Below are positions 6,168-19,166 of a DNA stretch of 34,556 bases, one piece after another (the stretch's first letter is position 1; each line of letters opens with the position of its first letter). The DNA is taken from assembly GCA_023663905.1 (NCBI GenBank), contig JAMPGO010000001.1:639448-674003 (forward strand). The letters run 5' to 3'. Below the pieces are notes generated by a model. The model did no database searches and was not told the DNA's origin. It saw only the letters and a program-made list of their open reading frames with translations. Source of the stretch: Ruminococcus flavefaciens. GTDB lineage: Bacteria > Bacillota > Clostridia > Oscillospirales > Ruminococcaceae. The position numbers and the translations under genes were made by a program.

Positions 6168-6529
6168 AATTCATTCTCCTTATCTTCAAAAAAGTTTTTC
6201 TTCTCAAGAATCCTGTCGTACACCTTATACATCTGCTGAACTGTATTTTCCAGGAAATAATAGTGCTTTATATAGAATGCCAGCAGAATAAGTATCATTG
6301 TTACGAGAAGCAGAAGGGCGAAATTCTCGGCAAAGATAAATGCGCATATAAAAATCGACAGCACTATTGCAAACATCATCGTCACAAGGAAGTGAACGAT
6401 TCTCTCGTGCTGCATAAAAGCAATCTTGTCCTTGTGTTCGGCAAGAATCTTTTCAATATCATTCAGCGAAACACAGCTGTTGAGTCTCTGTTCAGTCAGG
6501 TTCATATAATTTTTCAGATATTCAGTCAT
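6164..6529 (-). CDS. Small membrane protein with two transmembrane segments
   Basis: 121 residues. A charged N-terminal part of about 45 residues is followed by two hydrophobic segments (HFLVTMMFAIVLSIFICAFIF and FALLLLVTMILILLAFYI) and a charged C-terminal tail of about 30 residues. Both ends probably face the cytoplasm. The family is not recognised. It is the first gene of the operon, with GGGAG 9 bases before the ATG, and its stop overlaps the nth start by 4 bases. Small proteins of this look often precede nth in Ruminococcus-like gene orders, but I cannot confirm that here. Confidence 0.8.
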   Translation of the reverse strand: MTEYLKNYMNLTEQRLNSCVSLNDIEKILAEHKDKIAFMQHERIVHFLVTMMFAIVLSIFICAFIFAENFALLLLVTMILILLAFYIKHYYFLENTVQQMYKVYDRILEKKNFFEDKENEL

Positions 6530-13855: not shown

Positions 13856-15100
13856 ATGAAAAAAATAATCTCTCTTATAATTTCAACGGCGATGAGCCTT
13901 ACAGTCATATCCGCATACAATAACAGCTGTGCTTCGGCATCATCGGGAATCAGCGTTGCGGAACACTCTCCGCAGGAAATAAAGCAGTATATTGACTCTC
14001 ACCCGTTCGATGACTGGGCTGACGACGGATTTGCAACCAAGCCGTCAACGTCCTATCCGTATGTTACAGGCGCACTCGACGACAGCTCGCTTCAGAATGC
14101 CCTTAATACGCTCAACTGTATGAGATATATTGCAGGGCTTCAGGAAGTATCGCTGAACAGCGAATACAACGAACTCGCACAGTCGGCTTCATTAGTCAAC
14201 TGCGTAAACAATGAAGTCTCCCACTATCCCACACAACCCGACGATATGCCCGATGATATTTATGCCAATGCCTATTACGGTGCTTCGCATTCAAACCTGT
14301 TCGGTGCGTATATTTCAGGATTCCCCTATTTTCTGAACGTTTCATACAGCATAACGGCATATATGAACGACAGCGATTCTTCAAATATTGCGAGAGTTGG
14401 TCACAGAAGATGGTGTCTCAATCCTGCAATGCTTGAAACGGGATTCGGTGCGGTTGAGAATCACTCCGCTATGTATGCGTTCGATATGCAGAGAAATGCG
14501 ACGGAGACAGGTGTATGCTGGCCTGCGCAGAATATGCCGACAGACTATTTCTACAGCGATACAGCGTGGAGCATATCTATGGGCAGATACGTTGACAGCG
14601 AGGACGTGAGCGTAACCCTTACAAGGAAATCCGACTCAAAGGAATGGATTTTCAGCAGTTCTTCCGCTGACGGCGATTTTTATGTTGACAACAGCAATCG
14701 TGGACAGACAGGCTGTATAATTTTCAGACCGTCGGGTATTTCAGATTACTATGCAGGCGACGTTTTTGACGTAAAAATCGAGGGACTTGACGAGCCAGTT
14801 GAGTACAGCGTAAACTTCTTTTCGCTCGATTATATTACTGACGAGCCTGCTGTATATTCGCCCGGCGATGTCAATGCAGACGGCGAAATAAATGCAAAGG
14901 ACGCTTCTGCCATTCTTGCGGAATACTCGGCTTTGTCAACACAGCAGGCTTCCACATTCAGCGACGGACAGAGAAAATCGGCTGACGTAAACAGCGACGG
15001 CGAGATTAATTCAAACGACGCTTCCGTTATCCTCTCCTACTACTCTTATCTGTCAACAGGCGGTGAAGCAGATATATCGGGCTGGCTGAATCAGCATTAA
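13856..15100 (+). CDS. Secreted CAP-domain protein with dockerin
   Basis: 414 residues. Signal peptide (1 to about 27), then a domain with the SCP/PR1-like CAP pattern: NTLNCMRYIAGL, LNSEYNELAQSASLVN, SHYPTQP, ASHSNLFG and GHRRWCLNP with conserved His and Arg. A beta-rich segment follows, then a dockerin (about 340-405) with two calcium loops, DVNADGEINAKDASAIL and DVNSDGEINSNDASVIL, joined by YSALSTQQ and ending in YSYLST. CAP proteins have no single known role; some bind lipids or are proteolytic. The dockerin indicates attachment to a scaffoldin or the cell surface. The CAP domain resembles the clostridial type. AAAGGAGCT lies 8 bases before the ATG. It is a single-gene unit with its own promoter and terminator. 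Confidence 0.88.
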   Translation: MKKIISLIISTAMSLTVISAYNNSCASASSGISVAEHSPQEIKQYIDSHPFDDWADDGFATKPSTSYPYVTGALDDSSLQNALNTLNCMRYIAGLQEVSLNSEYNELAQSASLVNCVNNEVSHYPTQPDDMPDDIYANAYYGASHSNLFGAYISGFPYFLNVSYSITAYMNDSDSSNIARVGHRRWCLNPAMLETGFGAVENHSAMYAFDMQRNATETGVCWPAQNMPTDYFYSDTAWSISMGRYVDSEDVSVTLTRKSDSKEWIFSSSSADGDFYVDNSNRGQTGCIIFRPSGISDYYAGDVFDVKIEGLDEPVEYSVNFFSLDYITDEPAVYSPGDVNADGEINAKDASAILAEYSALSTQQASTFSDGQRKSADVNSDGEINSNDASVILSYYSYLSTGGEADISGWLNQH

Positions 15101-15111
15101 CAGCTCCGCCG

Positions 15112-15138
15112 ACAGACCTCTTCTGCGGGTCTGTTTTT
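15112..15138 (+). terminator. Terminator of the CAP-dockerin gene
   Basis: ACAGACC (15112-15118) pairs with GGTCTGT (15128-15134), followed by a T run to 15138. Confidence 0.8.
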
Positions 15139-15148
15139 ATATTCGCAT

Positions 15149-15181
15149 AAAAAAGAAGTCCGGTGTTTTTTCCCGGACTTC
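15149..15181 (-). terminator. Terminator of the candidate small RNA
   Basis: Perfect 9-bp stem GAAGTCCGG/CCGGACTTC with a 9-base loop, followed on the minus strand by six T. On the plus strand it is followed by purines, so it works only leftwards. Confidence 0.85.
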
Positions 15182-15266
15182 AAAGAAGAAAAAATAAAAA
15201 AATGTGTAGAACAAAAGAAAGGAGACAACAAAACGAGTGATAAATAATTCAATATTATTTAACACT
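15149..15266 (-). ncRNA. Candidate small RNA of about 118 nt with anti-Shine-Dalgarno tract
   Basis: The minus strand carries a near-consensus promoter (15301-15273) and a strong terminator (15181-15149), with no gene between them. The predicted RNA begins with a hairpin (perfect 8-bp stem TAAATAAT/ATTATTTA, 15261-15241). It continues with an unstructured U/C-rich stretch containing GTCTCCTTTCTTTTG (15226-15212) and ends in the terminator stem. A CU-rich single-stranded loop complementary to GAAAGGAG is typical of Gram-positive sRNAs that block ribosome binding sites. A GTG-started reading frame through it has no ribosome binding site and is mostly Phe. It lies 355 bases upstream of nifJ on the other strand. 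This is inference from layout; no known RNA family is claimed. Confidence 0.55.
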
Positions 15267-15272
15267 GTACTT

Positions 15273-15301
15273 ATTATATCCTATTTTTGGGTTTCAGTCA
15301 A
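15273..15301 (-). promoter_or_regulatory. Strong promoter driving the candidate small RNA
   Basis: Minus strand: TTGACT (15301-15296), 17-base spacer, TATAAT (15278-15273). A 7-base inverted repeat, GTTTCAG (15291-15297) and CTGAAAC (15324-15330), flanks the -35 region and may be an operator. Confidence 0.82.
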
Positions 15302-15515: not shown

Positions 15516-15544
15516 TTTACAAATTCAAAAGTTTATGTTATAAT
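15516..15544 (+). promoter_or_regulatory. Promoter of nifJ
   Basis: TTTACA (15516-15521), 17-base spacer, extended -10 TGT-TATAAT (15536-15544). The leader is about 70 nt. Confidence 0.87.
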
Positions 15545-15620: not shown

Positions 15621-18600
15621 ATGGCAATAAAAAGAAAAATGAAAACTATGGACGGCAACAACGCCGCTGCCTGGGTTTCATATCCATTTACCGACGTAGC
15701 TGCTATTTATCCTATCACTCCATCGTCCGTTATGGCTGAAGTCACTGACAGCTGGTCAGCAAAGGACAAGAAGAATCTTTTTGGTCAGCCTGTTACTGTT
15801 GCTGAAATGCAGTCCGAAGCAGGCGCAGCAGGTACGGTTCACGGTTCGCTCTCTGCCGGTGCATTGACAACAACATACACCGCTTCTCAGGGTCTTCTCC
15901 TGATGATTCCGAATATGTACAAAATCGCTGGCGAGCTTCTCCCGAACGTAATCCACGTTTCCGCCCGTTGCGTATCTTCTCACGCTCTCAATATCTTTGG
16001 CGACCATTCCGATATATATGCCTGCCGTCAGACAGGATATGCAATGCTCTGCTCATCAAATGCGCAGGAAGTTATGGATTTGGGCGCAGTAGCTCACCTC
16101 TCAACAATCAAGGGCAGAGTGCCTTTCCTCCACTTCTTCGACGGTTTCCGTACTTCTCACGAAATCCAGAAAATCGAAACGTGGGATGATTCCACACTCT
16201 ACGACCTTCTCGACAAGGACGCTGCACAGCGTTTCAGAGACGGCGCACTTCACCCCGAAACACCTGTTCTCCGTGGCTCGGCTCAGAACCCTGATATATT
16301 CTTCCAGGCACGTGAAGCCTGCAACAAATACTATGACGCTCTTCCTGCTATCGTTGAAGATTATATGAATAAAGTAAACGAACTCATCGGCACAGACTAC
16401 AAGCTCTTCAACTACTACGGCGCACCCGATGCAGAGCATATCATCGTTGCTATGGGTTCTGTCAATGATACTATCGAGGAGACTATCGACTACCTCAACG
16501 CAAACGGCGGTAAGTACGGTCTCGTTAAGGTAAGACTTTACAGACCTTTCGTTGCAGACAAGCTTGTTGAAGTTATTCCCGACAGCGTAAAGAGAATTTC
16601 CGTTCTCGACAGAACAAAAGAACCAGGCTCTCTCGGCGAACCGCTCTATCTTGATGTTGTTGCAGCTCTCAAGGGTACAAAATTCAACGACGTTCCGATT
16701 TTCACAGGTCGTTACGGTCTCGGCTCAAAGGATACTGTTCCTGCTCAGATTGTCGCTGTATTCAAGAACACAGAAAAGCCACGCTTCACAATCGGTATCA
16801 ACGACGACGTTACAAATCTCTCGCTTCCTCTCGAGGAAAACCCCGATTCTGCTCCTGCTGGAACAACAGCTTGCAAATTCTGGGGACTTGGTTCAGACGG
16901 TACAGTCGGCGCAAACAAGAACTCTATCAAGATTATCGGCGACCATACCGACCTCTATGCACAGGCTTATTTTGCATACGATTCAAAGAAATCAGGCGGT
17001 GTAACTATCTCTCACCTCCGTTTCGGAAAAACTCCTATCAAGTCAACATACCTCATCAACAAGGCTGACTTCGTTGCCTGCCACAATCAGAGCTATATTG
17101 ACAAATACGATATGGTTTCCGACATCAAGCCCGGCGGTACTTTCCTCCTCAACACAATCTGGGATATGGACGGTCTTGAAGCTAATCTTCCTGGACAGGT
17201 TAAGAGATATATCGCACAGAACAACATCAACTTCTATACAATCAACGGCGTAAAGCTCGGCGAAGAAACAGGTATGGGTACAAGAATCAACACAATTCTC
17301 CAGTCCGCATTCTTCAAGCTTGCAAATATCATTCCTTTCGAGGACGCTCTCGGCTATATGAAATCCGCAGCTGAAGCTTCATACAGCAAAAAGGGTCAGG
17401 ACGTTGTTGAGAAGAACTGGAACGCTATTGACGCTGGTCACCAGAATATCGTAAAAATTGACGTTCCCGATTCCTGGAAGGAAGCTTCCGATACTCAGAT
17501 GGGTATGAGCGCAGTTTCCTGCGACGACCAGAAGCTTGCCGACTATGTAAACAATATTCAGATTCCGTGCAATGCTCAGAAGGGTGACACTCTCCCCGTT
17601 TCAACATTCGTTGATATGGCTGACGGCACATTCCCGCAGGGTTCAGCTGCATTTGAAAAGCGTGGTATCGCCGTTAAAGTGCCTGAATGGATTCCCGAAA
17701 ACTGTATTCAGTGTAACCAGTGCGCTTACGTTTGTCCGCACGCTGTAATCAGACCTGTTGCAATGACACCTGCTGAGGTTGAATCTGCTCCTTCAGGCAT
17801 AAAAACTCTCGATTTCAAGCCTGCTGTCGGCGACCTCAAGTTTACAATGACAGTTTCAACCCTCGACTGTACAGGATGTGGCGTATGCGCTAATATATGC
17901 CCTGCAAAGAACAAGGCTCTTGTTATGCAGCCTATCGCTTCACAGATGGAACAGCAGGAAGTATTCAACTACGGTGTTACTATTGACGAAAAGCCCGAAG
18001 TTTCTGCTAAATTCAAGGCTGATACAGTTAAAGGCTCACAGTTCAGACAGCCACTCCTTGAATTTTCAGGCGCTTGTGCAGGATGTGGTGAAACTCCTTA
18101 TGCTAAGCTCGCTACTCAGCTCTTCGGCGACAGAATGATGATTGCAAACGCTACAGGATGTTCGTCAATCTGGGGCGGTTCTGCACCTTCAACTCCTTAC
18201 ACTGTCAACAAACAGGGCAGAGGTCCTGCTTGGAGCAACTCGCTCTTCGAGGACAACGCTGAGTTCGGCTATGGTATGTATCTTGCACAGGAAACCCTCC
18301 GCAAGAGAGTTACAGACAAGGTTCTCGCACTTCAGGCTAAGGCTGAAAAGCAGGAAGTCAAGGACGCTATTGCCGAGTATCTTGACACATACAACGACGG
18401 AGCTAAGAACGCTGTTGCTACAGACAAGCTCGTTGCTGTACTCGAAGCCTGCGGTTGTGATGACGCTAAGGCAATCCTTGCTGAAAAGCTCTATCTCTCA
18501 AAGAAATCGCAGTGGATTTTCGGCGGTGACGGCTGGGCTTACGACATCGGTTTCGGCGGTCTCGACCACGTAATCGCTTCAGGCAAGAACGTTAATATCC

Positions 18601-19166
18601 TCGTATTCGATACAGAAGTTTACTCAAATACAGGCGGACAGGCTTCAAAATCCACACCTACAGGCGCAATCGCACAGTTTGCAGCAGCAGGTAAGGTAAT
18701 GAAGAAGAAGGACCTCGCAGGTATCGCTATGAGCTACGGCTACGTTTACGTTGCTCACGTTGCTATGGGTGCGAATATGAACCAGTGTATCAAGGCTTTC
18801 GCTGAGGCTGAGGCTTACGACGGTCCGTCAATCATCATCGCTTACGCTCCTTGTATCAACCACGGTATCAAGACAGGTATGGCTACTGCTCAGGCTGAGG
18901 AGAAGAAGGCTGTTGAAGCAGGTTACTGGCATCTCTACAGATACAACCCTGCACTCAAGGACGAGGGCAATAATCCGTTTATGCTCGATTCAAAAGCTCC
19001 TAACACGGACGAGTACAAGAACTTCCTTATGGGCGAAGTACGTTACAACTCGCTTGCACGCTCCAATCCCGAGAGAGCAGAAAAGCTGTTTGACGCTGCT
19101 GTTGCAAATGCTAAGGACAGATACGACTACCTCACAAGACTTACAACTCTCTACGGTCAGGACTAA
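15621..19166 (+). CDS. nifJ: Pyruvate:ferredoxin (flavodoxin) oxidoreductase
   Basis: 1181 residues from ATG 15621, which has GGAGG 9 bases upstream; the longer frame to 15489 runs through the promoter and is rejected. It is the single-chain, all-domain enzyme: N-terminal pyrimidine-binding domain (YPITPSSVMAE), domain II, the EKR-type linker, a two-cluster ferredoxin domain (CIQCNQCAYVCPHAVI and CTGCGVCANICPAKN), and a C-terminal thiamine-diphosphate domain (GACAGCGETPYAKL, ATGCSSIWGG, GDGWAYDIGFGGLDH). It oxidises pyruvate with CoA to acetyl-CoA and CO2 and reduces ferredoxin or flavodoxin, the central oxidative step of this anaerobe and a source of hydrogen. Codon bias matches ppdK, suggesting very high expression. 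It has its own promoter and terminator. Confidence 0.98.
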   Translation: MAIKRKMKTMDGNNAAAWVSYPFTDVAAIYPITPSSVMAEVTDSWSAKDKKNLFGQPVTVAEMQSEAGAAGTVHGSLSAGALTTTYTASQGLLLMIPNMYKIAGELLPNVIHVSARCVSSHALNIFGDHSDIYACRQTGYAMLCSSNAQEVMDLGAVAHLSTIKGRVPFLHFFDGFRTSHEIQKIETWDDSTLYDLLDKDAAQRFRDGALHPETPVLRGSAQNPDIFFQAREACNKYYDALPAIVEDYMNKVNELIGTDYKLFNYYGAPDAEHIIVAMGSVNDTIEETIDYLNANGGKYGLVKVRLYRPFVADKLVEVIPDSVKRISVLDRTKEPGSLGEPLYLDVVAALKGTKFNDVPIFTGRYGLGSKDTVPAQIVAVFKNTEKPRFTIGINDDVTNLSLPLEENPDSAPAGTTACKFWGLGSDGTVGANKNSIKIIGDHTDLYAQAYFAYDSKKSGGVTISHLRFGKTPIKSTYLINKADFVACHNQSYIDKYDMVSDIKPGGTFLLNTIWDMDGLEANLPGQVKRYIAQNNINFYTINGVKLGEETGMGTRINTILQSAFFKLANIIPFEDALGYMKSAAEASYSKKGQDVVEKNWNAIDAGHQNIVKIDVPDSWKEASDTQMGMSAVSCDDQKLADYVNNIQIPCNAQKGDTLPVSTFVDMADGTFPQGSAAFEKRGIAVKVPEWIPENCIQCNQCAYVCPHAVIRPVAMTPAEVESAPSGIKTLDFKPAVGDLKFTMTVSTLDCTGCGVCANICPAKNKALVMQPIASQMEQQEVFNYGVTIDEKPEVSAKFKADTVKGSQFRQPLLEFSGACAGCGETPYAKLATQLFGDRMMIANATGCSSIWGGSAPSTPYTVNKQGRGPAWSNSLFEDNAEFGYGMYLAQETLRKRVTDKVLALQAKAEKQEVKDAIAEYLDTYNDGAKNAVATDKLVAVLEACGCDDAKAILAEKLYLSKKSQWIFGGDGWAYDIGFGGLDHVIASGKNVNILVFDTEVYSNTGGQASKSTPTGAIAQFAAAGKVMKKKDLAGIAMSYGYVYVAHVAMGANMNQCIKAFAEAEAYDGPSIIIAYAPCINHGIKTGMATAQAEEKKAVEAGYWHLYRYNPALKDEGNNPFMLDSKAPNTDEYKNFLMGEVRYNSLARSNPERAEKLFDAAVANAKDRYDYLTRLTTLYGQD

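Follow-up and report, generated by a model that had tools for sequence, protein, structure and literature searches.

A probable small RNA of many Ruminococcaceae with an almost invariant CU-rich core and probable pairing sites in mRNA leaders

The window analysed here is a stretch of 34,556 nt from Ruminococcus flavefaciens (contig JAMPGO010000001.1, positions 639,448–674,003 of the forward strand). On its minus strand, from 15301 to 15149, we identified in order a near-consensus promoter, a 5′ hairpin, an unpaired CU-rich tract and an intrinsic terminator; promoter, tract and terminator had all been proposed in a first-pass annotation, which named no strand. A promoter scan placed the −35 element TTGACT at 15296–15301, with five of six columns invariant across the 50 aligned genus sequences described below, and the −10 element TATAAT at 15273–15278, after a 17-nt spacer. 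This promoter (15301–15273), which agrees with the earlier description, matches the consensus at 11 of 12 positions and would start transcription near 15266. Promoter-like sites are about twice as frequent in the 3 kb scanned as expected from shuffles (12 versus 5.0), so the promoter is unconvincing by itself; the locus stands beyond chance because it is conserved in 55 of 60 genomes of the genus.

The 5′ hairpin, previously given as 8 bp, is present at 15236–15266 of the minus strand with a larger stem, composed of four outer and eight inner pairs with a 1×1 mismatch; its sequence varies within the family and its pairing is kept. The conserved core CACTCGTTTTGTTGTCTCCTTTCTTTTGTTCTACACAT (15202–15239, same strand) is mostly unpaired in the predicted fold, its first four nucleotides closing the 5′ stem, and CTCCTTTCTTTT lies inside the unpaired stretch, as had been noted. 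Within the core, CTCCTTTCT (15216–15224, minus strand) is complementary to AGAAAGGAG and resembles what we take to be the 3′ tail of 16S rRNA, only 9 nt being alike. The 34-nt segment at 15202–15235 (minus strand) is complementary to the leader sites of the related genus g415 discussed below. The intrinsic terminator (15149–15181, minus strand) has the 9-bp stem and T6 reported earlier, and a loop of 9 nt. The predicted RNA folds with a minimum free energy of −23.8, compared with −14.0 ± 2.9 for shuffles (z −3.4).

The minus strand contains two ORFs of at least 20 residues (51 and 42 aa), and both extend across the terminator, in line with the earlier view that there is no good reading frame. 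A coding role was rejected on this ground and because all 38 core positions are invariant, including the third codon positions of any frame. The divergent neighbour is nifJ (15621–19166, plus strand), recognised as pyruvate:ferredoxin oxidoreductase by its Pfam POR domains; a second promoter, TTTACA-17-TATAAT with TG before the second hexamer (15516–15544), is placed as would suit this gene. The ORF at 13856–15100, convergent with the small RNA (sRNA), ends in a type I dockerin domain and is followed by a terminator-like site at 15111–15135. An inverted repeat at the −35 element, taken here as GTTTCAG...CTGAAAC, had been read as a sign of regulation. This idea was abandoned, since the arms occur in one of 50 aligned rows, that of the window itself.

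With a 157-base blastn query the sRNA was found in 55 of 60 same-genus genomes (E ≤2.8e-14), whereas among 39 genomes of other families of the order the same query gave nothing better than 1.3e-4. The promoter, CU tract and terminator, on whose conservation in relatives the first-pass annotation had made its reading depend, proved to be conserved there. We scored 50 of the 60 alignment rows, leaving out five other copies and five that were cut, held N or carried a long insertion. All 38 core positions are invariant across the scored rows and the −35 and −10 boxes nearly so, and the surrounding sequence has drifted, with identities of 0.47 in the spacer, 0.63 in the tail and 0.58 in the terminator. 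Two genus copies (L098 and L099) carry a long insertion within the 5′ hairpin, with the core unchanged.

In a wider sample of the genus, a 24-mer of the core was matched at up to three mismatches in 98 of 110 genomes, 97 of them with none; these are pattern matches whose context was not checked one by one, and a few of the genomes also carry phage-type copies. Among well-completed genomes of the genus the figure was 57 of 59. Across the family, a 23-mer at up to three mismatches was present in 76 of 247 genomes (69 with none). The other seven matches comprise three that are not sRNA copies by their context and four divergent copies judged to be sRNAs by promoter or hairpin context; L467, L468 and L470 are without the 3′ ACACAT end, and L469 has TTATCTCC. 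Of 126 genera, 35 were named in this tally, three of them resting only on non-sRNA matches as judged by eye, which leaves some 32 genera. In genus g415 the core is exact over 24 nt in all 29 genomes. One genome (G965) contains two exact core copies (L526:363–396 and L527:1202–1235), one of them on a short contig, which may be a second gene or an assembly duplicate. Order- and class-wide searches at up to three mismatches in 27 nt matched 14 of 295 and 4 of 391 genomes, all from the RNA's own family. A scan of named genomes returned at least 120 stretches; among the matches listed, the titles name R. flavefaciens and R. albus, numerous assemblies of Oscillospiraceae or Clostridia, and a single one labelled Alistipes. 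Rfam 15 gave no match at the gathering threshold in the window, with only matches far short of their thresholds around the RNA (E 0.23–5). In 16 related loci it identified eight tRNAs and a skipping-rope RNA, all of them away from the core. We found no description of this RNA in the open-access literature, although prior mention elsewhere is possible.

The same anatomy recurs in 123 unique host copies with full flanks, collected by blastn and core-pattern searches. A promoter with up to three mismatches in 12 positions precedes 122 of them (120 with at most one mismatch), and all 122 have a terminator consisting of a hairpin and a T run; the median length is 118 nt. The 5′ segment, represented by 99 distinct sequences, folds below −3 kcal/mol in 110 of the 122 copies. 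The outer helix covaries: across 32 distinct combinations of arms a mean of 7.16 of the 8 pairs can form, compared with 6.00 (maximum 6.50) when the 3′ arms are re-dealt; 22 of the 122 copies were unscorable, and the test somewhat favours pairing because the arm offset was chosen for best fit. Changes on both sides of the helix, together with the invariant core, point to conservation of structure in the hairpin and of sequence in the core. The core has a mean predicted openness of 0.75, which exceeds 0.8 in only 58 of 122 copies and is as low as 0.40.

The genomic surroundings are less constant. Of 132 copies, only 53 have a nifJ-cluster protein nearby, in most cases encoded divergently on the upstream side, and other lineages have other neighbours. 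We therefore rejected nifJ as a shared cis target, and the variation by lineage implies that the sRNA acts in trans and is not part of nifJ. A trans-acting sRNA is generally expected to have a stand-alone gene with its own promoter and terminator, which is present here by sequence, and mRNA sites elsewhere that evolve compatibly with pairing, which were observed in genus g415 and not clearly in the window's genus.

The g415 sites came to light as opposite-strand matches in one genome during the family search, after which the 29 genomes of this genus were scanned. Several contain tandem complementary sites, compared with no match in the 29 genomes to a reversed-pattern control. In total, 21 leader sites were identified in eight genomes, with 28–32 of 34 positions identical to the perfect complement of the core; in shuffles of one leader the best of 300 reached 24 of 34, compared with 30 for the real sequence. 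Seven of the eight genomes have two or three sites per leader, and 12 of the 13 gaps between sites measure 77–80 nt, the remaining one 65 nt. The predicted duplexes lie between −46.2 and −47.4 kcal/mol for 20 sites and at −35.9 kcal/mol for one. Where the first gene is present, the 3′ end of the sites lies 35–40 nt or more before its start codon.

The substitutions within these sites follow a distinct pattern. Outside position 21, 56 of 61 keep pairing as G·U, an A-to-G change at eight columns turning the A–U pair with the RNA into G·U; these are not 61 independent events because the sites of an array are related by descent. Of the five non-pairing substitutions, a single degenerate site of L518 accounts for three and an end position in L464 for two, and no pair-breaking change recurs outside position 21 except at end position 1 (one C, one T). 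Position 21 itself, where a G would complete GGAG, is A, C or T in all 21 sites. We read this pattern, from the aligned sites, as selection to pair with the core without making a ribosome-binding site in the leader; the broken position may also be relevant to RNase cleavage. Base pairing of the core with the g415 leader sites is thus very likely on comparative grounds, and in this genus at least, contact with the partners most likely extends beyond a seed to the entire core.

The operon behind the array contains, in order, a gene without a Pfam match (313 aa in L464), a short ORF and a gene for a Band 7/SPFH (flotillin-type) protein, as judged from a Pfam scan of one copy of each gene. The flotillin-type gene was found in seven of the eight array loci, the contig of L517 ending before it. 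By eye, L518 has only a remnant of the first gene and L520 lacks it, and in both the sites and the downstream flotillin gene remain.

Outside the arrays, single sites overlapping a Shine-Dalgarno (SD) sequence were found before a DegV gene (L471) and a gene for an ABC-type ATPase named by eye (L472), each with 27 of 34 identities, and at related small genes in two genomes (L473 and L474). Weaker single sites (25–26 of 34) precede PadR-type regulators in three genomes (L521, L522 and L525; Pfam on L521 only). Further single sites lie before a serpin-type lipoprotein (L466, 29 of 34) and, in the window's own genus, before a VWA lipoprotein (L538, 25 of 34). One leader, by eye that of a lipoprotein (L528, genome G972), has two weaker sites, one with 27 and the other with 25 of 34 identities, separated by about 166 nt, and is a candidate second multi-site target. 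Sites before one gene family in three genus genomes (L534, L535 and L539) were set aside, as they overlap the end of an upstream frame and may be coincidence. Our scan of 539 loci, a set enriched by retrieval in which most top sites are the opposite strand of the RNA gene or phage copies, yielded 13 complement sites with 25 of 34 identities and others that score higher, compared with one reversed-pattern match at 25; a site at 25 of 34 also occurs in L302, from a genome outside the family.

Genome-scale searches gave a more restrained picture. The window's genome contains five forward and one reverse long complements, including the RNA's own complement, versus one and one in the control. For complements of 16 nt, the 36 genus genomes searched gave fewer matches than to the reversed control (276 versus 322, own complement included), as did 24 other genomes (133 versus 169). 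Across 110 genus genomes there were few further complementary sites and almost no long target stands out. A 5′-leader scan of 334 genes in the window's genome was at chance level, and for start-region pairing at 334 genes in 400 kb of this genome the signal was weak, with 4 of 40 flank-shuffled controls reaching the real value. Target prediction, as suggested in the first-pass annotation, has thus yielded sites for 34 nt of the core in genus g415 and signals that are weak or near chance in the window's own genome. Pairing with 23S rRNA was rejected over the 23S region examined, where the best duplex (−26.9) did not surpass the mean best of 20 shuffled cores (−30.0); the 16S search returned none in five genomes, the stretch before 23S being N.

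Copies of the core also occur in phage sequences. An exact 21-mer scan of viral contigs gave 13 matches, and two scans with 17-mers returned 61 and 43 stretches, of which many are chance matches. Named phage and plasmid collections gave chance-level matches only, the best among the 20 listed for each having E 1 (phages) and 0.3 (plasmids). By eye, the phage copies judged to be real begin with a −10-like box and a strong 5′ hairpin whose sequence is unrelated; the core and a second hairpin, lacking a T-run, come next, often with a tRNA behind them. Their core is more variable than that of the host, at either end. Among 35 hand-picked loci (three of them bacterial), 29 were unique and scorable; in these, the 72 nt before the core fold with a mean z of −3.0, a −10-like box is present in 27, a count taken with no chance control, and predicted openness of the core is only 0.58. 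Each of the three loci tested for neighbours has a transcription regulator nearby, and two also have HNH, terminase or portal genes.

A tRNA lies within 260 nt in 23 of 85 core-like loci, a set with four bacterial loci and many chance matches; 20 of these tRNAs are Met(CAT), two Leu and one Gly, with 15 distinct sequences. All 20 Met tRNAs have A11:U24 and a 1×72 mismatch (17 G×A, 3 C×A), which we take to be initiator marks, and the full GGG/CCC anticodon stem is present in only two. These initiator-type tRNA-Met(CAT) genes follow the core at a distance of no more than 260 nt, in loci that are phage or prophage-like (L101, L107, L109, L111, L113–L116, L118, L119, L325, L332, L341, L342, L345, L351, L352, L356, L362 and L364). 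Their presence is notable because, where a host nuclease cuts the tRNA-fMet anticodon, phages generally avoid encoding that tRNA, according to the excerpted text of PMC10264068. In L110 (85–110) and L355 (about 2788) the core RNA precedes a tRNA read as Leu(CAA); on the 162-kb contig of L110 a second tRNA-Leu follows, and the preceding CGTTTTGT is the same as in host copies. The contig of L119 carries a skipping-rope RNA (RF02924, 51.1 bits; 6419–6517) about 2 kb behind the core RNA. Six core-less loci of related phages (L399, L401, L403, L409, L413 and L414) have anti-SD-like tracts shortly before the terminase small subunit gene, which match up to 9 nt of what we assume to be the 16S tail (L399 best, with 9 nt). 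A class of other anti-SD RNAs in such terminase-linked phages was not upheld, the mean longest match in 20 segments being 5.55 versus 4.86 in shuffles, and this is a lead only.

We consider it probable, from sequence comparison, that this locus encodes a stand-alone sRNA of about 115 nt, a conserved regulator of many Ruminococcaceae whose core pairs in trans with mRNA leaders and mainly alters the fate of the transcript. A sigma-A-type promoter and a Rho-independent terminator would give the RNA, in which the 5′ hairpin and terminator would cap an almost invariant, largely single-stranded CU-rich core. This core would form duplexes of up to 34 nt in trans with purine-rich sites GUGUAGAACAAAAGAAAGNAGACAACAAAACG in mRNA 5′ leaders, the clearest case being the tandem sites in the leader of the flotillin-type operon of genus g415. 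The RNA would mainly change the fate of whole transcripts, through leader stability or processing and with an effect of either sign, and would cover the SD only at some single targets; phage core copies may act on the same targets. We infer a role in transcript fate from the position of the sites ahead of the start region and from their avoidance of GGAG. Sites that are leader-borne, multiple and SD-free, and that survive loss of the adjacent gene, favour transcript control over plain SD blocking.

The earlier reading of the locus was that of a trans-acting repressor at ribosome-binding sites. A free-standing, trans-acting, base-pairing sRNA is retained in our interpretation, whereas blocking of ribosome-binding sites agrees poorly with the best sites, which lie upstream of the SD and have no GGAG in any of the 21 cases. 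In its full form this alternative holds that the CUCCUUUCU tract covers ribosome-binding sites on several mRNAs and blocks initiation like the streptococcal csRNAs, the arrays being a lineage-specific extra. The exact complementarity of the tract to AGAAAGGAG, the SD-overlapping single sites and the advantage of the real core over 36 of 40 flank-shuffled controls at 334 start regions all accord with it, although chance matches at start regions are likely because the sequence is SD-like, and the window's genus shows no excess of long complements; we regard it as possible and on balance rather unlikely. The arrays might instead be sponges, carried in an abundant leader, that titrate the sRNA, whose real targets would be short-seed mRNAs missed by a search for long complementarity. 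Repeated sites at regular spacing, a central mismatch that avoids the SD and the persistence of the array after decay or loss of the first gene would all suit a sponge. However, the arrays still precede a kept flotillin-type gene in seven of eight loci, and genus g415 is the only one in which they were observed, the core being equally invariant in genera that yielded none. As the main explanation this is unlikely in our judgement, but a sponge role of the arrays is compatible with transcript control.

Two further readings place the function of the core outside mRNA pairing. Its near letter-for-letter identity over some 32 genera exceeds the usual need of multi-target pairing, and could instead reflect a protein or ribosome recognition element, such as a decoy of the 16S 3′ tail, held invariant by a protein partner that the phage copies would titrate; the frequent position of those copies beside initiator-type tRNAs likewise points to translation initiation. 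Yet sites complementary to 34 nt explain much of the conservation in one genus, pairing with the 23S region is no better than with shuffled cores, and presumably only 9 nt are like the 16S tail, so that we hold this reading to be improbable. That the shared core is a phage DNA attachment site, and not a functional RNA, is disfavoured and very improbable: host and phage share identical stretches of up to 26 nt and more, but the phage copies have their own hairpins and −10-like boxes and lie, in the loci tested, between a regulator gene and terminase or HNH genes, and the host copies keep promoter and terminator. Alongside transcript control by the host RNA, we put forward only tentatively, and as a rather doubtful scenario, that phages of Ruminococcaceae took over the pairing core from a master sRNA of the host and joined it with an initiator-type tRNA of their own in a single RNA module ahead of the terminase genes. 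Such a module would act on translation initiation and on the host leader-site regulon, including the flotillin membrane operon, in late infection, and the host RNA would answer to this exchange or have arisen from it.

By plan, the closest kind of known RNA is that of the CiaR-dependent csRNAs of streptococci, which in the excerpted text of PMC3091779 typically have two stem-loops and an unpaired SD-complementary stretch, although forms with one stem-loop or more complex folds also exist. The same excerpt describes a genomic location that varies between species, with one case on a plasmid, a conserved nonamer containing UCCUAAA that a few csRNAs are without, and an anti-start codon whose placement lets the RNA pair with SD and start codon at once (PMC3091779). 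Two stem-loops enclosing an unpaired anti-SD stretch are also predicted for the RNA studied here. In contrast to the csRNAs as excerpted, it is without UCCUAAA, and its CAU lies 3′ of the anti-SD CTCC, which excludes collinear pairing with the start codon. Its 34–38-nt core is almost invariant, and its best sites, located in upstream leaders, have a disrupted SD-like GGAG, two further differences.

Gram-positive sRNAs of the RsaE/RoxS type have a conserved C/U-rich single-stranded pairing region, a feature shared by the present RNA, which differs in that no Rfam family was matched in the window and only tRNAs and the skipping-rope RNA in the 16 other loci. DapZ shares a GcvB-like pairing region. 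RsaE is named, and GcvB and DapZ are given as two RNAs with the same class of targets, in the excerpted text of PMC4098024. The host RNA and the phage copies may likewise be two RNAs acting on one target class; here, in contrast, the core common to both is near identical, and a phage region beside a tRNA is one of the carriers.

The RNA described here is without an Rfam 15 match in the window and the 16 related loci, yet occurs in nearly every sampled genome of its genus. The tandem leader sites of genus g415 permit a direct compensatory-mutation test of the pairing. With a core unchanged over 23 nt in 69 of the 247 family genomes sampled, and with phage copies that often stand beside an initiator-type tRNA, two questions become testable: why the conservation of some pairing regions extends far beyond a seed, and why phages carry particular tRNAs.
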